DNA from: Candidatus Poribacteria bacterium
GTDB lineage: Bacteria > Poribacteria > WGA-4E > WGA-3G
Direction of reading: 5' to 3'
Assembly: GCA_958295945.1 (NCBI GenBank)
Contig: OY282386.1
Coordinates: 3,342,204 to 3,406,203 of the forward strand
DNA: 64,000 nucleotides
Part shown: in pieces, positions 43,271-53,170 of the stretch
Position numbering within the stretch: the stretch's first letter is position 1
Layout of the letters: every line of letters begins with the position of its first letter
Notes under the pieces: generated by a model
The model's database searches: none
Told to the model about the DNA's origin: nothing
The model's input: only the letters and a program-made list of their open reading frames with translations
Position numbers and translations under genes: made by a program

Positions 43271-44359
43271 ATGGAAAAGACATTACACGTAGAACTCAAA
43301 GAAAACCGTTACCCAATCATCGTTGGTTCAGGGAATATAACCCGAATTGGTGAATGTCTTAAATCACTGAGCAAATCTACGAGAGTACTTATTGTTACAG
43401 ACACATCCGTTAAACATCATTATGGTCCTTTAATTTTGCGGAGTTTGGAAAATGCTGGTTTTGATGTTGATTTGATTGAAGTTCCTGTTGGTGAAAGTAG
43501 CAAGTCGTTAGAACAATTTGCACGGATTCAGGATAGTTTAGTTGCAAATCAATTGGATCGGAGTTCAATGGTGGTGGCTATTGGTGGTGGGGTTGTTGGT
43601 GATTTAGCTGGATTTGCAGCTGCGGTTTACATGCGTGGGATAGATTATATTCAAATTCCCACGACTTTACAGGCACAAGTTGACGCGAGCGTTGGTGGTA
43701 AGACCGCAATTAATCATGAAAAGGGTAAAAATCTTATCGGTGCTTTTCATCAACCTAAATTAGTATTGATTGATGTTGATACTCTGAATACCCTACCGAA
43801 ACGAGACCTCCGCGCAGGACTAATTGAAGTGATAAAAATGGGTGTCATCAGAGATGAACACTTGTTTGAGATGGTGGAGGAAAACTTAGAAGCAATATTA
43901 GACTTAGATGCAGAAACACTCATCGATATGATCGCTCGTGCGTGTGCAAACAAAGCGGATATAGTCGCGAAAGATGAAAAAGAAAGCAGATTGCGGATGG
44001 TGCTGAACTATGGACATACATTTGGACATGCGCTTGAAGCATTGACAGACTACGATGGATTAAGACACGGAGAAGCAGTGTCTATCGGCATGAATTGCGC
44101 AGCACAATTAGCAGTCAATTTAGGTATGTTTTCGAAAACTGATTTTGAACGTCAACGTAATCTACTAATTCAGGCACAACTTCCGTTAACCTTTCCATCG
44201 AATCTTACCCCAAAAACTATATGTGAAACTATGTATTATGATAAAAAAGCATTAGATGGTAATCTACGTCTTATTTTGCCGACTCGAATTGGGGAAGTAG
44301 TTATCCGAGACGATGTAACTGACACACAAATTATTGAAGCAATTTCACAATGTAATTAG
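43271..44359 (+). CDS. aroB: 3-dehydroquinate synthase
   Basis: 362 residues. NAD-binding GGGVVGDLAGFAAA, the substrate loop PTTLQAQVDASVGGKTAIN, and the zinc-site segments NYGHTFGHALE and HGEAVSIGM are present. It converts DAHP to 3-dehydroquinate, the second step of the shikimate pathway. The ATG at 43271 follows the aroK stop by one base. Confidence 0.95.
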   Translation: MEKTLHVELKENRYPIIVGSGNITRIGECLKSLSKSTRVLIVTDTSVKHHYGPLILRSLENAGFDVDLIEVPVGESSKSLEQFARIQDSLVANQLDRSSMVVAIGGGVVGDLAGFAAAVYMRGIDYIQIPTTLQAQVDASVGGKTAINHEKGKNLIGAFHQPKLVLIDVDTLNTLPKRDLRAGLIEVIKMGVIRDEHLFEMVEENLEAILDLDAETLIDMIARACANKADIVAKDEKESRLRMVLNYGHTFGHALEALTDYDGLRHGEAVSIGMNCAAQLAVNLGMFSKTDFERQRNLLIQAQLPLTFPSNLTPKTICETMYYDKKALDGNLRLILPTRIGEVVIRDDVTDTQIIEAISQCN

Positions 44360-44389
44360 TTCTTAACCCAAATTCTTTTGAGGAAATAA

Positions 44390-45547
44390 ATGACATATAA
44401 CAAGACATTTATATGTATAACCACATGTTTGCTTATATTTTTATGTGGCACTTATGCATTTAGTCAAGAACCGACGTTTTCAACTCCGACAAACGTCACT
44501 GCGAAAGATACACCTAATGACGATGGCTCAAGTATCACCGTCACATGGGATGCTGTACCTGAGGATAGTGGAATAACAGGATACAAAATCCTACGCAACA
44601 CTGATTCTGGTGAGTTTGAGGAGATTGGTAAACAGTTAAAACCGACTGCGACTCAATATAAGGATTCAGAAATAGAAAAAGGAAAAACACATGCATATTT
44701 TGTACAGGCAATTACTGATTCTGAAGCACTAGTAAATTCGCAACAGACAGAAGGAGTAATAGCTACTGGACAATGGTTTCACACGGGTAAGACCTCACTT
44801 TTTATTGCCATGATAATTTTATGTGCAGCAATTCTTGTAAGTATATACCTTTGCCGTAATAATCAAGATGTATTTGTTCGCCGTATTCCTGGACTTGAAG
44901 CTGTCGATGAAGCAATCGGAAGGGCAACCGAGATGGGCCGTTCAATTTTATATGTGCTAGGGTTAGGGGGTGTTGAAAATGTTGCAACTATTGCCAGTAT
45001 GACCATTCTTGGACAGGTTGCACGACGAACTGCTGACTATGAAACACCGCTACGCGTGCCCTGTAATGATCCCATTGTGTTGAACGTTGTTCGGGAGATG
45101 GTTAAAACTTCTTACCTCGACGAAGGTCGTCCAGATGCCTACCAGGAAGAGAACATTTTCTATCTTACGGGTGATCAATTCGCTTATGCAGCAGGTGTTG
45201 ATGGTATGATGATTCGCGAAAAACCAGCAGCAGTCTTTTTACAAGGCACATTTTATGCGGAATCACTTCTTATGGCTGAAACCGGAAATTCCATCGGTGC
45301 AATACAAATTGCTGGTACAGATTCAGAACATCAACTCCCCTTCTTCATCGCAGCCTGTGACTATACCTTGATAGGTGAAGAACTCTATGCAGCAAGTGCG
45401 TATCTTTCCAAAGAACCAATGCTTCTAGGAAGTCTCAGAGGACAAGACTGGGGTAAAATCGTCATTTTTGTGACGATCATCCTTGGTGTGACTCTTGAGT
45501 TGTTCGGTATCAACTGGATTACTACACTTTTACAGAGTGTGAGATAG
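44390..45547 (+). CDS. FN3 domain plus membrane protein (DUF6754-like), cluster gene 1
   Basis: 385 residues. A signal peptide (to about residue 26) leads into one fibronectin type III domain (about 30-125: SSITVTWDAVPEDSGITGYKI). A transmembrane helix follows at about 133-152, then a cytoplasmic part with AVDEAIGRATEMGRSILY, FYLTGDQFAYAAGVDGMM and FIAACDYTLIGEELYAASAYL. A last helix is at 356-378. The arrangement suits a DUF6754-type protein of unknown function. GAGGAAA precedes the ATG, 30 nt after aroB. Genes 1-4 are spaced by 8, 3 and 4 nt, so they form one operon. Confidence 0.75.
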   Translation: MTYNKTFICITTCLLIFLCGTYAFSQEPTFSTPTNVTAKDTPNDDGSSITVTWDAVPEDSGITGYKILRNTDSGEFEEIGKQLKPTATQYKDSEIEKGKTHAYFVQAITDSEALVNSQQTEGVIATGQWFHTGKTSLFIAMIILCAAILVSIYLCRNNQDVFVRRIPGLEAVDEAIGRATEMGRSILYVLGLGGVENVATIASMTILGQVARRTADYETPLRVPCNDPIVLNVVREMVKTSYLDEGRPDAYQEENIFYLTGDQFAYAAGVDGMMIREKPAAVFLQGTFYAESLLMAETGNSIGAIQIAGTDSEHQLPFFIAACDYTLIGEELYAASAYLSKEPMLLGSLRGQDWGKIVIFVTIILGVTLELFGINWITTLLQSVR

Positions 45548-45555
45548 GAGAATAT

Positions 45556-46206
45556 ATGAAGAGACAAATACCCTTAGCATTCTGCTTTCTTTTTGGCATA
45601 GCGATGATCTTCACCCAATTTAGTCCACATTCATATTCCCAAGCAGTTTACAAGGAAGTGATCAATTGGGGGTTAATAATATCGCCATTCGCTATGGTAT
45701 TGGCAGTTGTGACGCTCATCCAGACACACGTTACACGCATCAACCTTCGTACAGAACATTGGCAATACAGTCTGATTGTATTCGTTGGCATGATAGTGAT
45801 GGTTTTAATTGGTGTTCCCTTTGGACCGCAAAACTCAATAGTTGAGTGGTTATATAATAACGTCCAAGTCCCAATGGATGCAACAATGTTTTCTTTGCTT
45901 GCCTTTTTTATTGCTTCAGCGGCTTTTCGTGCTTTCCGTGCACGGTCATTTGAGGCTTTTTTACTTCTTGCTACTGCCATGATTGTCATGATCGGAAATG
46001 TCCCCGTTGGCGATCTCGTTTGGAATAAGGTAATGTCTTGGATGCCTTGGACAGACGGTGCATCATGGTTACGCCAATGGATTTTAGATGTTCTAAACAA
46101 TGCTGCACGACGTGGTATTATTCTTGGTGTAAGTTTAGGGGTCATTTCACAATCTATCCGAATTATATTAGGAATTGAACGGTCGTATCTTGGTGGAGGA
46201 GATTAG
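45556..46206 (+). CDS. Six-helix membrane protein, cluster gene 2
   Basis: 216 residues with about six transmembrane helices and a short N-terminal one that could be a signal anchor. Basic and aromatic residues fill the loops (RAFRARSFEAF). The last part reads NNAARRGIILGVSLGVISQSIRIILGIERS. No known domain is evident. GGAGA precedes the ATG. It ends 3 nt before gene 3. Confidence 0.68.
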   Translation: MKRQIPLAFCFLFGIAMIFTQFSPHSYSQAVYKEVINWGLIISPFAMVLAVVTLIQTHVTRINLRTEHWQYSLIVFVGMIVMVLIGVPFGPQNSIVEWLYNNVQVPMDATMFSLLAFFIASAAFRAFRARSFEAFLLLATAMIVMIGNVPVGDLVWNKVMSWMPWTDGASWLRQWILDVLNNAARRGIILGVSLGVISQSIRIILGIERSYLGGGD

Positions 46207-46209
46207 TCA

Positions 46210-47025
46210 ATGCTTGAAAAAATCATGAATATGGACAGACGAGTAATTTTTATATTAGTTGCTTTAGTTGTTATCTTTCCAACCCTTGTCCCAGTAAGGA
46301 TGCCAATTACAGTTTCAGAGCCAACACGAAATCTTTACGATTTTATTGAAACACTCCCCTCAGGATCAACGATTATGATTGCTTTTGATTATGGACCATC
46401 TTCTCTCGCCGAACCAGAACCGATGGCAAAGGCAGTAATGCAACACTGTTTCAGTAAAGGGATAAAAATCATCGGTATGACCCTTCTCCCTAATACACCA
46501 ACCTTGGCTCATAAACTCATGCGAAAGATTGCTGCAGAAAACAATGCTGTCTATGGTGAAGATTATGTATTTCTGGGTTACCGTCCCGGAACATTACAAG
46601 TTATCCTTGGTATGGGAACCGACATCAGTAGTGTCTTTGAAACCGACTATGAAAATAAAACTGTTGACGAAATTCCGATGATGGAAAATATCACAAACTA
46701 TGATCAGATTGATTTGTTGCTTGATCTTGCTTCCGGAAGTACAACCGAAGCTTGGATCATTTATGCCAACACAAGGTACGGTGTGAAGATTGCTGCAGGC
46801 GTTACAGCAGTAATTATTGCCCAGATGTATCCTTATTTGCAAACAGGACAGTTGATAGGCTTAATGCCCGGTTATTTAGGAGCCGCCGAATATGAGAAAC
46901 TGTTGAATGCGCCTGGGGATGGAACTATTGGATTAAACACCGCAACCTATGCACATCTTTTGATTATCGGTTTGGTCATTCTAGGCAATATTGCATTTTT
47001 TATTCAGCGAAGAAGGGAGGGTTAA
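46210..47025 (+). CDS. Membrane-anchored protein with a large soluble domain, cluster gene 3
   Basis: 271 residues. A transmembrane helix at about 12-28 and another at 248-265 enclose a soluble alpha/beta domain containing SGSTIMIAFDYGPSSLAEPE, GYRPGTLQVILGMGTD and YDQIDLLLDLASGSTTEAWI. The soluble domain lies between two anchors, probably on the outer face. It resembles no enzyme family I know. GGAGATTAG precedes the ATG. Confidence 0.68.
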   Translation: MLEKIMNMDRRVIFILVALVVIFPTLVPVRMPITVSEPTRNLYDFIETLPSGSTIMIAFDYGPSSLAEPEPMAKAVMQHCFSKGIKIIGMTLLPNTPTLAHKLMRKIAAENNAVYGEDYVFLGYRPGTLQVILGMGTDISSVFETDYENKTVDEIPMMENITNYDQIDLLLDLASGSTTEAWIIYANTRYGVKIAAGVTAVIIAQMYPYLQTGQLIGLMPGYLGAAEYEKLLNAPGDGTIGLNTATYAHLLIIGLVILGNIAFFIQRRREG

Positions 47026-47029
47026 ATTG

Positions 47030-47722
47030 ATGGAAATTATTGGAATCTGGGTTGCAGCATTCTTAACACTCTGCATTTATAGTTTTCTTTACAGAGATAA
47101 TCCATTCTATCGTTTTGCAGAACATCTCTTTGTAGGAATTTCGGTTGGATACATCATTATTATTAGTATCCATCAAGGAGTTATACCATTAGCATGGGAA
47201 CCTTTATCTGAAGCAATCAGCGCGCTCTGGGCAGAGATAGTGGGGACAACAACACCAGAAACACGAAATGCACTTTGGGGGTTATTTAGAATATTACCAA
47301 TTGCCATCGGTTTATTGTTTTTTGCCCGTTTGTCCTCGCGTCATACGTGGTTAATTCGTTATCCTATAGCTATTCTGATCGGATTTGGGGCTGGTGTCGC
47401 AATTCCAAATGTGTTGCAGGCAAATATCTTTGCTCAGACACGCGGAACAATTGAACCCTTTGCTGCAATGAATGCAGGAACGCTTTCCGTTTTGGATACT
47501 TTCAACGCTGTCCTCATAGTCATTGGTGTAATATGCACCCTTACATATTTTTTCTTCTCTGTGGAACACCGCGGTCCTATCAATTGGCTTTCAAAGGTTG
47601 GTATTGCTTTCCTAATGATAGGTTTTGGAGCTGCATTTGGGAATACCGTTATGGGACGTCTTGCTCTCTTGATTCACCGTGTTGGTTTCCTCTTGAATGA
47701 TTGGATGGGTAGCATTTTTTGA
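47030..47722 (+). CDS. Polytopic membrane protein, cluster gene 4
   Basis: 230 residues with about seven transmembrane helices. It starts at ATG 47030 with GGGAGGG upstream, 4 nt after gene 3; an upstream in-frame start at 46991 would overlap gene 3. The segment FYRFAEHLFVGISVGYII and the end GRLALLIHRVGFLLNDW are notable. No known domain is evident. Together with genes 1-3 it probably forms one inner-membrane complex. Confidence 0.7.
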   Translation: MEIIGIWVAAFLTLCIYSFLYRDNPFYRFAEHLFVGISVGYIIIISIHQGVIPLAWEPLSEAISALWAEIVGTTTPETRNALWGLFRILPIAIGLLFFARLSSRHTWLIRYPIAILIGFGAGVAIPNVLQANIFAQTRGTIEPFAAMNAGTLSVLDTFNAVLIVIGVICTLTYFFFSVEHRGPINWLSKVGIAFLMIGFGAAFGNTVMGRLALLIHRVGFLLNDWMGSIF

Positions 47723-47774
47723 GGAAATTGAGATTTACATGCAATCATATTGTTAAATAGTGTGGTATTAAACT

Positions 47775-48776
47775 ATGACTAACAAACCAAGAGAATCTTC
47801 AACGCAAACAGTTGAGGACACCATCCAAACATATCAAGTTGATCAAGATTTTTCTTTCATAAAAAAAGCAATAGTAGATGCTAATTTGTTAGTGAAAGCA
47901 AACAAAGTGGATGCAGCTGTTGAAAAATGGCAAGCAATAGCGAATATTGTTGAAGGCAATAATGAAAAACTTGCTGAACATGCTTGGGAAAATTTGGGTA
48001 ATCTGCTTTACAAACAAGAGAGAACCGAGGAAGCACTTTACGCATACAACAATGCTATACGATTGAATTCTAAGAATGCGGAAACCCATGTCCACAGAGG
48101 CAAGGTAAAAAACATACTTGAGCTTTATGAAGATGCAATAGAAGACTGCAATGAAGCCATAAATCTTAATACTTCTACAACATTTGTAAAAGCAGCTGCC
48201 TACACTACCCGTGGTGTTGCCAAATTCGGTTTGGGAGACTATGTTGGTGCCTTTGCCGATCATGATGCTGCACTACGTTTAGACCCAAAGTGTGCGGATG
48301 CATTTTTCAATATAGGTATTGCTAAAATGAAGCAGGGAGAGGATGAATGTGCAATAGCAGAATTTGACAAGGCAATTGATATCTGTCCAGATATGGCAGA
48401 AGCTTATCACTATCGAGGCTATGTGAAGTTTTTCCTTGGACAACTCAAGGCAGCGGTTTCTGACTATGACCAGGCAATCCGTCTTGCACCGTGGCAGGGA
48501 GCTAGCTACACCAACCGAGGACTTGTGAAATACGCGCTAGGCCGACGTGAAGCTGCATTTGCTGATTATGAAGAAGCGATTCGTGTAGATCCAACATTTG
48601 CACACGGTTATACCTATCGTGCAGAGATGAAAATTCGCCAAAATCGTGATGCAGAAGCAAGAGCAGACTTGGAAACTGCACTTAAGCTTGCCCGTGCCGC
48701 AGATGATGAAATTCACCAGACTTACGTTGAAACCTCAATTAAAGAACTTGACGAATCAGAGGAAAACAACAGCTGA
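47775..48776 (+). CDS. TPR-repeat protein
   Basis: 333 residues. After a charged N-terminal region, about seven tetratricopeptide repeats run from residue 65 to 320, for example AWENLGNLLYKQERTEEAL, then AYTTRGVAKFGLGDYVGAF, and AYHYRGYVKFFLGQLKAAV. There is no signal peptide, so it is a cytoplasmic scaffold. No ribosome binding site is clear. It is 52 nt after the membrane cluster and overlaps the following gene by one base, so the cluster and this gene may be one transcript. Confidence 0.88.
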   Translation: MTNKPRESSTQTVEDTIQTYQVDQDFSFIKKAIVDANLLVKANKVDAAVEKWQAIANIVEGNNEKLAEHAWENLGNLLYKQERTEEALYAYNNAIRLNSKNAETHVHRGKVKNILELYEDAIEDCNEAINLNTSTTFVKAAAYTTRGVAKFGLGDYVGAFADHDAALRLDPKCADAFFNIGIAKMKQGEDECAIAEFDKAIDICPDMAEAYHYRGYVKFFLGQLKAAVSDYDQAIRLAPWQGASYTNRGLVKYALGRREAAFADYEEAIRVDPTFAHGYTYRAEMKIRQNRDAEARADLETALKLARAADDEIHQTYVETSIKELDESEENNS

Positions 48777-49280
48777 TGCCTGAATTTTCCGGATTTCAAC
48801 GAGTTAAGCCGCGCACAATCTGGCCTCACGAGGCGCAGGAGTTCACACCTTGGCTGGCAGATAACTTGTCCTTTCTTGCCAAGACACTGAACATGGAATT
48901 GGAGTTTGAAGCAAGAGAGAAGGATGTTGGAGGGTTCCGAGCTGATCTAGTGTGTCGTAACAAAGTGGATAACTCACGAATAGTCATTGAGAACCAATTG
49001 GAGAAATCTGATCATTCACACCTTGGTCAAGTTCTGACATACGCCGCTGGGCTTCAGGCAACTACCGTTGTTTGGATTGCGACAGAATTTCGAAATCCAC
49101 ATCGCGTAACGTTGAATTGGCATAACGAAATGATGCCTGCACATTTTAAGTTTTTCGGTGTCCAGTTAGGATACGTGGCAATATAGCACAGCAGTTCACT
49201 TCGCGGAATTCTCTATCGTCTCAAAGCCTGAGAATTGGACATTTATAGAAGATTCGTTACTGTACCGTATCCAAATTTAG
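48776..49280 (+). pseudogene. Frameshifted PD-(D/E)XK protein, DUF4268-type N-terminal part
   Basis: The first frame (48776-49186, 136 residues) begins like DUF4268-type proteins (IWPHEAQEFTPWLADNL) and has the nuclease-like core with Asp (FRADLVCRN), Glu-x-Gln (VIENQLEKSDH) and HLGQVLTYAAGLQATTVVWIA. It stops right after FFGVQLGYVAI. In another frame the DNA continues with TAVHFAEFSIVSKPENWTF, which is the expected next part of the family, and then ends at 49280. A one- or two-base change near 49184 therefore broke the gene, and the C-terminal DUF4268 part is missing. It starts one base inside the TPR stop. Confidence 0.75.
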
Positions 49281-50259: not shown

Positions 50260-51636
50260 ATGAAACCAAATATACTTCTCCTCATGACAGACCAACAACG
50301 ATGGGACGCAATGGGTTGCAGTGGTGATTGGGTGCAAACACCTAATTTGGATAGAATCGCAAATGAAGGTGTCCGCTTTACTAATTGCGTTACCACATCT
50401 CCGGTCTGTATCCCTACGCGTCTCAGTTTAGCAACGGGGTTATATCCGCACAATACAGGTGTTTGGAATAACATGCATCATACGATGTCCGCTGAAACCC
50501 CGACCTGGATGCAAGCAGTACGTGATGCAGGTTACCGCACCAGTCTTTTCGGTAAAACACACCTTCATCCCCATAACGGAGATTTGCGGGACAGAGAAGA
50601 TTTAATGAATTCGTATGGTTTAGATGATGTTGATGAGATAGGTGGTCCACGAGCAAGTAGTCGCGTCCTATCCCATATGACAGCAATGTGGGAGGAAAAA
50701 GGATTATGGCAAGGTTACCGTGAGGATTATAGCGACAGATTCAGCACAAAACCGCACACGGTACGTCCTTCAACAGTTGGACTTGAAAACTATGCTGATG
50801 TTTACGTCGGTCAACAATCAAAGAAGTATATTCAGAACTATGACCGGCAAGAACCGTGGTGCTGCTGGGTAAGTTTCGGTGGACCTCATGAACCGTGGGA
50901 TACACCCGAACCTTATGCCAGTATGTATGACCCAAAAGACATGCCACCACCTATTCCACGTCAACCTGCTGGAGATCGTCCTCGTGGTAATTTAGACAAT
51001 ATGATGAATCGGATGAATCCCAAATTTGAAAAGGGTGAAGAACAAAGGTTACGCGCAGATTATGCTGGAAACGTAACACTCATAGATGATCAGGTTGGTG
51101 AAATACTTGAAGCAATTGATGCCCGAGGTGAACTTGATAATACCGTCATTATTCACACTTCAGACCACGGTGAAATGAATGGTGATTACGGATTGATATA
51201 CAAAGGTAACTTCCTCAATGGAGCAGTTCGAATCCCACTACTTGTCCGAACTCCAGAAACTGTAAAAGACACGCCAGAAGGTACCGTTTGCGACAGTCCC
51301 GTCGAATGGATTGACATTGGACCAACACTTGTTGAAGCGGCAGGTGGTGAGATGAAGCATCGGCAGTCCGGTAAGTCGTTATGTCACGTTATTGCTGACA
51401 CGGAAGCAACTCACCGTGAATATGCGATCTCTGAAATATCGGGTGAAATCATGTTGCTGAATAAGGAATGGAAGATCGCGCTAAACAGTGATAGTATACC
51501 GTATCTTCTCTTTAATATGCAAGATGACCCAGATGAAATAAATAATCTGGCTGGACAACCCGAAATGAAAGAGTTAGAAACAGAACTAGGGCTGCAAATT
51601 TTAGAACACCTATTTCACACACAAACCAAAAAATAA
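50260..51636 (+). CDS. Type I sulfatase
   Basis: 458 residues. The formylglycine motif C-x-P-x-R is Cys50-Ile-Pro-Thr-Arg54 (SPVCIPTRLSLATG). Metal ligands include Asp11/Gln12 (MTDQQRWD) and the late SDHGEMNGDYGL block. Cys50 must be converted to formylglycine by a separate enzyme. It hydrolyses sulfate esters of sugars or polysaccharides. No signal peptide is present (MKPNILLL), so it is predicted to be cytoplasmic unless an upstream start is used. AAGGAT precedes the ATG. It is a tandem paralogue of the next gene. Confidence 0.93.
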   Translation: MKPNILLLMTDQQRWDAMGCSGDWVQTPNLDRIANEGVRFTNCVTTSPVCIPTRLSLATGLYPHNTGVWNNMHHTMSAETPTWMQAVRDAGYRTSLFGKTHLHPHNGDLRDREDLMNSYGLDDVDEIGGPRASSRVLSHMTAMWEEKGLWQGYREDYSDRFSTKPHTVRPSTVGLENYADVYVGQQSKKYIQNYDRQEPWCCWVSFGGPHEPWDTPEPYASMYDPKDMPPPIPRQPAGDRPRGNLDNMMNRMNPKFEKGEEQRLRADYAGNVTLIDDQVGEILEAIDARGELDNTVIIHTSDHGEMNGDYGLIYKGNFLNGAVRIPLLVRTPETVKDTPEGTVCDSPVEWIDIGPTLVEAAGGEMKHRQSGKSLCHVIADTEATHREYAISEISGEIMLLNKEWKIALNSDSIPYLLFNMQDDPDEINNLAGQPEMKELETELGLQILEHLFHTQTKK

Positions 51637-51640
51637 TCCT

Positions 51641-53170
51641 ATGAAGACTAAATCCGATAAAATCAATCGCAGAACGTTCATCAAGAATCTCGGTGTAGCA
51701 GGAGCAGGTGCCATATCACTTGTTGCCACAAACACTGGTGTACAGGGAGTGAAGGCAGATCAACAACCTGCAAGTGAGTCCAAGAAACCGAACATCCTTC
51801 TTCTGATGACAGACCAGCAACGGTGGGATGCCATGGGGTGCAGTGGTGATTGGGTGCAAACACCAAACATGGACAAAATTGCAAACGAGGGTGTACGTTT
51901 TACTAATTGTGTCACTACATCACCTGTTTGTGTTCCTGCACGCCTCAGTTTAGCAACAGGATTGTATCCACACAACACCGGAGTTTGGAACAACCAAAAG
52001 CATAAGATGAAACCTGACACTCCAACATGGATGCTAGCTGTCCGAGAGGCAGGCTATCGCACGAGTCTATTCGGTAAAACACATCTCCACACGAATACTG
52101 GTGATCTTCGTAAACGTGAGCATTTAATGCACGCTTACGGATTAGACGATGTGAACGAGATTGGTGGTCCCCGAGCAAGTATGAAATGCCTATCCTATAT
52201 GACAGAAATGTGGGAAGAAAAAGGTCTCTGGAAAGCATACCGTGATGACTATCAGGAACGTTTCAAAACAAAACCACATCTTGTTCGTCCCACTCCACTC
52301 GGACTTGAAAATGATGCTGACGTTTATGTCGGACAGCAAGCAAAGCAATATCTTCAAGACTATAACCGCAAAGAACCTTGGTTTTGCTGGGTGAGTTTCG
52401 GGGGACCTCATGAACCGTGGGATTGTCCAAAACCTTATTCAAGTATGTATAATGCATCTGATATGCCACAGCCAATATCCCGTCCGGATGTAGGTGACAG
52501 ACCTCGTGGAAGTTTGGATAATCTTATGAAGAATAAAAAGAAAAGTCCTAAATTCGACGCAGATGATGTAGCAAGAATGCGTGCGGATTATGCTGGAAAT
52601 GTTACCCTTATTGATGATCAGATTGGTGAAATTCTTGATGCAATTGAGCAGCGCGGAGAACTGGATAATACTGTCATCGTTTTCTGTTCAGACCATGGAG
52701 AGATGAACAGAGATTACGGGTTGATTTACAAAAGCAACTTCCTCAACGGTGCAGTCCGAATTCCTTTTCTTGTACGTACTCCTGATACACTTAAAAATGT
52801 TGAACCTAACCGAATATGTGATAGTCCTGTTGAATGGATTGATATCGGACCCACACTCGTTGAAATGGCGGGAGGGGAGTTGAAGCATAGACAGTTCGGA
52901 AAGTCCTTGGCTCCTGTTCTTGATGACATAGAAGCAACACATCGCGATTTTGCTATTTCCGAAATATCCCGTGAAATTATGCTACTAAATCATGAGTGGA
53001 AAATGGCATTAAATAAAGAAGGAACCCCTTATCTACTGTTTAATGTGCAAGATGACCCAAATGAAACAAACAATCTCGCAAGGGTACCAAAAATGAAGAC
53101 TATTGAAGAAAGATTAACAGAACAGCTATCAGAATACCTGAAACAGACTCAGACAAAAAACGAAAGGTGA
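51641..53170 (+). CDS. Type I sulfatase with Tat signal
   Basis: 509 residues. The N-terminus holds a twin-arginine signal (NRRTFIKNLGVAGAG, Arg10-Arg11) and an Ala-rich hydrophobic stretch, so it is exported folded. The formylglycine motif is Cys97-Val-Pro-Ala-Arg101. Long blocks match the preceding sulfatase closely (TDQQRWDAMGCSGDWVQTPN, GNVTLIDDQ), which shows a tandem duplication. Export before folding order matters because a Tat substrate can receive formylglycine in the cytoplasm. Start 4 nt after the first sulfatase. Confidence 0.93.
   Translation: MKTKSDKINRRTFIKNLGVAGAGAISLVATNTGVQGVKADQQPASESKKPNILLLMTDQQRWDAMGCSGDWVQTPNMDKIANEGVRFTNCVTTSPVCVPARLSLATGLYPHNTGVWNNQKHKMKPDTPTWMLAVREAGYRTSLFGKTHLHTNTGDLRKREHLMHAYGLDDVNEIGGPRASMKCLSYMTEMWEEKGLWKAYRDDYQERFKTKPHLVRPTPLGLENDADVYVGQQAKQYLQDYNRKEPWFCWVSFGGPHEPWDCPKPYSSMYNASDMPQPISRPDVGDRPRGSLDNLMKNKKKSPKFDADDVARMRADYAGNVTLIDDQIGEILDAIEQRGELDNTVIVFCSDHGEMNRDYGLIYKSNFLNGAVRIPFLVRTPDTLKNVEPNRICDSPVEWIDIGPTLVEMAGGELKHRQFGKSLAPVLDDIEATHRDFAISEISREIMLLNHEWKMALNKEGTPYLLFNVQDDPNETNNLARVPKMKTIEERLTEQLSEYLKQTQTKNER

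Follow-up and report, generated by a model that had tools for sequence, protein, structure and literature searches.

We examined a 64,000-nucleotide stretch of a Candidatus Poribacteria genome (contig OY282386.1, positions 3,342,204 to 3,406,203; hereafter the window), in which four adjacent genes, here called A, B, C and D, encode membrane proteins. Comparison of gene sequences from two phyla showed that A, B, C and D are inherited, duplicated and diverging as one unit, and we consider it very probable that they are a functional unit. Our favored reading, which we hold tentatively, is that A–D form one obligate four-subunit inner-membrane complex, core to the diderm envelope of both Poribacteria and WOR-3, where it would handle an envelope substrate. 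All four genes lie on the plus strand at 44390-47722, with intergenic gaps of 8, 3 and 4 nucleotides (nt), exactly the coordinates and spacing given by an initial annotation of the window. The genome around the window is a single contig of 5.34 Mb. Features are listed below, with lengths in amino acids (aa), transmembrane helices as TM and AlphaFold2 as AF2.

44390..45547, plus strand: gene A, 385 aa; signal/TM helix, FN3, TM, DUF6754, C-terminal TM
44477..44779, plus strand: FN3 domain of A, residues ~30-130, predicted extracytoplasmic (AF2 model, VIA-align, charge pattern)
44765..45529, plus strand: DUF6754 region of A, residues 126-380; PF20539 match; soluble part predicted cytoplasmic
45556..46206, plus strand: gene B, 216 aa; predicted to span the membrane six times, with N and C termini inside
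46210..47025, plus strand: gene C, 271 aa; alpha/beta Rossmann-like domain between TM helices 12-30 and 247-265; N and C termini predicted inside
46300..46947, plus strand: alpha/beta domain of C, residues 31-246, predicted extracytoplasmic (AF2 and positive-inside pattern)
47030..47722, plus strand: gene D, 230 aa; predicted to span the membrane six to seven times
47775..48776, plus strand: TPR gene 3' of D; Pfam TPR; excluded as a conserved partner

Gene order was conserved in most loci. A-B-C-D was kept in all 13 uncut named loci (L002-L014), in both phyla, with Stahlbacteria included at approximately 40–53% identity. The loci closest by A belong to Candidatus Poribacteria metagenome-assembled genomes, with 65–86% identity. 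Another named locus (L015) is cut inside A, and 30 short loci (L016-L045), the window's own copy among them, carry A-B-C in every case. In a larger set of 79 loci (59 from WOR-3 and 20 from the Poribacteria phylum), complete modules numbered 82, spread over 69 of the loci, with median gaps of 8, -4 and -4 nt. B, C and D followed A in order for 79 of the 92 A copies with enough room (WOR-3, 62 out of 74; Poribacteria phylum, 17 out of 18). Apart from a few A copies considered below, the exceptions had one gene uncalled. Open reading frames were called with a simple greedy script that missed A in two loci (L167 and L173) where DUF6754 was listed, and some of the B, C or D gaps among the 13 exceptions are probably missed calls of the same kind. 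One WOR-3 module (L158:9805-13448) has two extra genes, of 229 and 239 aa, between B and C.

The module is widespread in both phyla. Our survey covered Poribacteria and WOR-3/TA06, with 84 genomes of the window's phylum and 120 of the WOR-3/Stahlbacteria phylum. DUF6754, the domain of A, was present in 81 of the 84 (54 out of 55 of the cleaner ones), as was D, while WOR-3-phylum genomes had DUF6754 in 113 of 120, at one to seven copies each, and C in 117. The module is single-copy in most Poribacteria, and in WOR-3 it often forms tandem ABCD arrays. Copy numbers of A and C across the 120 genomes were correlated (Spearman 0.86) and were equal in 88. Four genomes had C without A; all three that were opened (G116 was left out) proved to be contig ends still holding B and D, and in a genome without D (G010) the contig ends inside C. 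DUF6754 was found in none of 14 control genomes, and no relatives of the module were found among viral contigs, plasmids and phages.

Partner proteins also diverged together. Across the 82 modules, pairwise distances correlated between partners at 0.855–0.933. When partners were swapped within 11 multi-module loci (pairs AB, AC, AD, BC and CD, with BD left out), the observed correlations of 0.94–0.97, compared with shuffled means of 0.68–0.73, were reached in 0 of 1,000 shuffles. Loci are non-independent, with several per genome and many from relatives, so the 11 loci are not 11 independent tests; the effect is still large. These data leave it highly improbable that four unrelated membrane genes share an operon by drift or chance and form no common complex. 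Operon neighbors can stay together over long times, as that explanation needs, but it would also have to account for two phyla, tandem duplication of the whole module, the swap result and the matched copy numbers. The initial annotation had proposed one inner-membrane complex, had suggested a search for the neighborhood in other genomes and had named homologs occurring alone as the contrary observation. Conserved order, copy number and partner co-evolution support the proposal, with the complex itself being what we infer from them, and partnerless homologs were few.

Protein A is the only subunit that, by sequence match, belongs to a catalogued family, and that family is itself a domain of unknown function. 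Residues 126-380 matched DUF6754 (PF20539) at 405.2 bits against a gathering cut-off of 27 (E 1.2e-121). The initial description of the four genes as lacking known families therefore fits B, C and D, none of which has its own family, but not A; the DUF6754 entry is silent on B, C and D and on their linkage. The FN3 profile (PF00041) scored 20.9 bits in A (E 4.2e-4), under the gathering cut-off of 25 bits. The FN3 domain noted earlier was nonetheless borne out by predicted structure, as residues 30-131 of the model aligned with 2ibg_A (Z 13.4, root-mean-square deviation [rmsd] 2.4, 99 residues aligned), and nearly all structure matches listed for these residues were FN3 proteins. Three residues of the FN3 region are conserved among 98 aligned sequences: D40 in 93, R69 in 94 and Y103 in 94. 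The AF2 model of A as a whole is poor, with a predicted local distance difference test score (pLDDT) of 63 for the full protein that drops below 50 across residues 285-355, and in this low-confidence model the soluble part of the DUF6754 region is alpha/beta. In certain Poribacteria belonging to other families, the A frames are short (294–326 aa), leaving no room for FN3. One A (L076) carries LysM domains, and another (L086) gave only weak coiled-coil-type matches.

Homology was less informative for the other three proteins. Pfam scans of 39–40 members each found nothing consistently above cut-off among members of B, C or D, no NCBIfam model scored above cut-off, and the family profiles had no match to PDB sequences at E≤0.001. 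Weak Pfam matches were scattered: for B, DUF998 (E 9.6e-5, 2 of 39 members), TMD0_ABC (2.2e-4, 6 of 39) and Acyl_transf_3 (2.8e-4, 6 of 39); for C, DUF2249 (E 0.0017, 4 of 40); and for D, Hol_Tox (E 0.009, 4 of 39). B has a conserved SAxxRAFRAR loop, and D has the conserved motifs YRDNPFYRFAEHLFVG and TVMGR. Invariant positions include R178, E181, D249, E330 and D353 in A and E68, D118, D146 and E229 in C. D is enlarged to 368–408 aa in three genomes of the same genus (L006:4722-5828, L007:12698-13912 and L014:12593-13819), where its C-terminal part, approximately residues 149-229, is repeated in frame. Homology between A and C and between B and D was considered and dropped for want of evidence (hhalign probabilities 0.2–3%).

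The AF2 model of C (pLDDT 77, predicted template modeling score 0.78) shows an alpha/beta Rossmann-like fold. Its best structural match was 9c0r_C (Z 8.9, 144 residues aligned, rmsd 3.3), the other matches, within 1 of this score, being unrelated Rossmann folds, and Foldseek with the C model gave nothing at E≤0.001. C has a layout of TM helix, extracytoplasmic alpha/beta domain and TM helix, with polytopic partners, that we take to be shared with GldG-like ABC exporters having a periplasmic alpha/beta subunit. Unlike those exporters, ABCD has no ATP-binding subunit, and C has no Pfam match to such a family.

Hydropathy and charge, averaged over 87–98 aligned sequences, suggest how the four proteins are placed in the membrane. 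For alignments A5-A7, every second module was taken, and a few long or odd members were dropped. In A the helices span 6-24, 135-153 and 357-375 (98 sequences), and because the 15 residues past the second helix hold on average 4.7 lysines or arginines (K/R), FN3 is predicted outside and DUF6754 inside. The helices of C lie at 12-30 and 247-265 (92 sequences), and with 3.3 and 3.7 K/R at the two termini of the protein, the domain between the helices is predicted outside. Six helices were predicted in B, whose termini are both placed inside, and six to seven in D. This agrees with the earlier description of two polytopic proteins (B and D) and one double-anchored protein (C). We consider the resulting topology likely: FN3 outside, DUF6754 cytosolic, the C domain outside, and B and D mostly within the membrane.

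Gene neighborhoods offered further indications of function. Neighbors were counted on the same strand within 8 kb at 59 WOR-3 and 20 Poribacteria-phylum loci, with Pfam and NCBIfam run on representatives. Envelope-type neighbors were found near WOR-3 modules and near none from the Poribacteria phylum: the Wzi outer-membrane barrel (13 and 0 loci, respectively), ExbB (6 and 0), ExbD (5 and 0) and TonB (4 and 0). Wzi capsule-assembly outer-membrane proteins (PF14052) are neighbors here, not homologs of the module. Other WOR-3 neighbors were MazG (14 and 0), DUF4388 (10 and 0), an unknown family of 213 aa (9 and 0), lipoate ligase (8 and 0) and GcvPB (4 and 0). The MazG-type neighbor (L062, L071, L072, L074, L082, L083, L086 and others) carries a Cys motif at its C terminus and is often immediately upstream of A. 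Three neighbors showed the reverse pattern, with aroK, aroB and a xylose-isomerase-like gene each at 0 WOR-3 and 11 Poribacteria-phylum loci, and two occurred in both groups, namely protein E (6 and 1) and the MutL-like ATPase F (5 and 1). A link to the shikimate pathway was dropped, since aroK-aroB lay near the module at 11 of 20 loci in one phylum versus 0 of 59 in the other.

We regard an envelope role of the module as close to an even call. It is suggested by the FN3/LysM extracytoplasmic part of A, the predicted periplasmic domain of C, the Wzi and ExbB-ExbD-TonB neighbors and the diderm cell plan of the WOR-3 isolate strain sy37, for which passages of PMC12285271 describe inner and outer membranes. 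The same neighbors raise the idea of a Tol/Ton/Mot-class machine driven by proton motive force, with ABCD as a membrane platform for ExbB-ExbD-TonB. Downstream of ABCD on the same strand, L084, L135 and their relatives carry DUF4388, the 213-aa family, genes for small membrane proteins, an ExbB gene, two ExbD genes and TonB, and Tol-Pal and TonB-ExbB-ExbD resemble the module in being inner-membrane complexes that reach the periplasm. However, ExbB was nearby at only 6 of 59 WOR-3 loci and none of 20 from the Poribacteria phylum. ABCD also differs in having large soluble domains on both sides, and none of its subunits matches MotA_ExbB, ExbD/TolR (both absent from A–D in Pfam at E≤1) or TonB. 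We judge this machine improbable.

Another explanation is a trans-envelope sensor, in which the FN3/LysM part of A, together with the C domain, would sense the state of the periplasm and DUF6754 would pass the signal to cytosolic partners. The cytosolic domain of A is indeed conserved while its extracytoplasmic module varies somewhat, and DUF4388 proteins lie near the module at 10 of the 59 WOR-3 loci. Such a sensor is nevertheless unlikely, as no kinase, response regulator or cyclase was found among the annotated recurrent neighbors (representatives scanned), and B and D are conserved along their whole length, beyond what two anchors would need.

Proteins E and F suggest a different association, in which the complex would be linked with F, a MutL-like ATPase, and with E, a barrel-sandwich-like protein, and thereby to glycine cleavage and lipoylation. 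Gene order is gcvPB-H-F-E-ABCD-ABCD-lplA-DUF4388 in L122 and L125 and similar in L123 and L124, and three further loci have E next to A: L067, L169 and L081 (the last from the window's phylum, with lipB- and lipA-like genes further down, by eye). Of 39 relatives, 38 have E and 37 have F; E is also present in 37 of 40 WOR-3 genomes. This association is quite unlikely to be the explanation, however. The window's own genome has E approximately 1.0 Mb and F approximately 0.55 Mb away from A, G066 and G079 have E but no A (the missing A of G079 reflects a contig end), G096 has A but no E, and lipoate genes are common operon passengers. F scored well under the NCBIfam GlmL cut-offs, and E had only a weak match in PDB (0.0079). 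In both phyla, H (a small protein with RGLTAPAxxFLE), F and E (a 373-aa protein with AHAYTPGLKV) also occur as a conserved cassette of their own, either H-F or H-F-E (L096, L097, L116, L130 and L122-L125); by eye, the cassette lies near gap-pgk-tpiA in L096 and L097.

Under the favored four-subunit envelope complex, A would place its FN3 module (LysM in one case) in the periplasm and its DUF6754 domain in the cytosol, C would hold its Rossmann-like domain in the periplasm, and B and D would contribute approximately 12 membrane helices between the two sides. Cytosolic DUF6754 and the periplasmic C domain would then act on opposite sides of a B/D path, so that an envelope substrate (glycan, lipid or precursor) might be received inside and transferred or modified outside, with the FN3/LysM part of A holding the machine against peptidoglycan or outer-membrane partners. 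We consider this transfer from DUF6754 through B/D to C doubtful as a specific mechanism. Pfam at E≤1 showed no ATPase family among A–D, and an ATP-binding subunit may be encoded elsewhere; with no recognizable ATPase in the module, energy would therefore be supplied by the substrate, by proton motive force or in trans.

Several observations weigh against the four-subunit complex and its envelope role. The evidence for a physical four-subunit complex is genetic only, and a few A copies lack B-C-D, four of them beside modules (L067, L068, L069 and L071) and one with no module (L140). Homology in Pfam, NCBIfam and PDB searches gives function to none of A, B, C and D, and the fold match of C is non-specific, with its Z of 8.9 standing among unrelated Rossmann folds near 8. 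Envelope-type neighbors occur only in a minority of WOR-3 loci and maybe in single clades. By hand comparison, Wzi lies beside the module in approximately 14 of 72 Wzi-matching WOR-3 genomes, with most Wzi elsewhere, and 48 of the 120 WOR-3 genomes had no PF14052 match. The other recurrent WOR-3 neighbors are metabolic (MazG 14, lipoate ligase 8 and GcvPB 4 of 59), and the Poribacteria neighbors are shikimate genes (aroK-aroB, 11 of 20 loci), which are uninformative on the envelope.

Around the module in the window, aroK and aroB lie upstream of A, and the TPR gene, a xylose-isomerase-like gene and sulfatases lie downstream. The TPR gene, which the initial annotation placed after the module, is present as described. 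As a fifth subunit it was dropped, because among the 18 other Poribacteria-phylum loci in which D was called, only two (L003 and L011) have a relative of it after D. By eye, a GA-rich ribosome-binding-like sequence precedes every A–D start. No terminator-like sites were found in 44300-47900, compared with 2.1 expected, and promoter-like sites showed no excess (8 versus 9.5 in shuffles). Past the TPR gene, a 136-aa open frame (48776-49186) resembles by eye the front of a nuclease-type protein and has no Pfam match at E≤0.001. Two adjacent and very similar sulfatase genes (50260-53170) look like a recent duplication by eye.

We know of no described system with the ABCD make-up and therefore regard ABCD as a new kind of system, on a survey of Poribacteria and WOR-3/TA06. 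The initial suggestion of an undescribed system stands insofar as our literature search found no paper naming DUF6754 or PF20539, and needs the correction that the family of A is catalogued. Passages of the 2014 poribacterial genome paper (PMC3909097) mention FN3 domains only in general, and the terms looked up had no match in a WOR-3 genome survey (PMC12542636).

Three of the four subunits (B, C and D) are without a family name, and a module present across most genomes of two deep phyla likely does something basic. The lack of DUF6754 in the control genomes may partly explain why the module has gone unstudied. Possibly, though this is on the unlikely side, ABCD is a phylum-core and probably essential envelope machine of a type that model organisms lack. 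It would then be an inner-membrane transferase or transporter of four subunits with alpha/beta domains active on both faces, duplicated in WOR-3 to give substrate-specific paralogs, and with F and E, which occur alongside it in nearly all genomes examined, serving in trans. A WOR-3 isolate, sy37, is now available for work, according to parts of PMC12285271. ABCD thus raises a testable question: which envelope function do these diderms run with proteins absent from well-studied bacteria?

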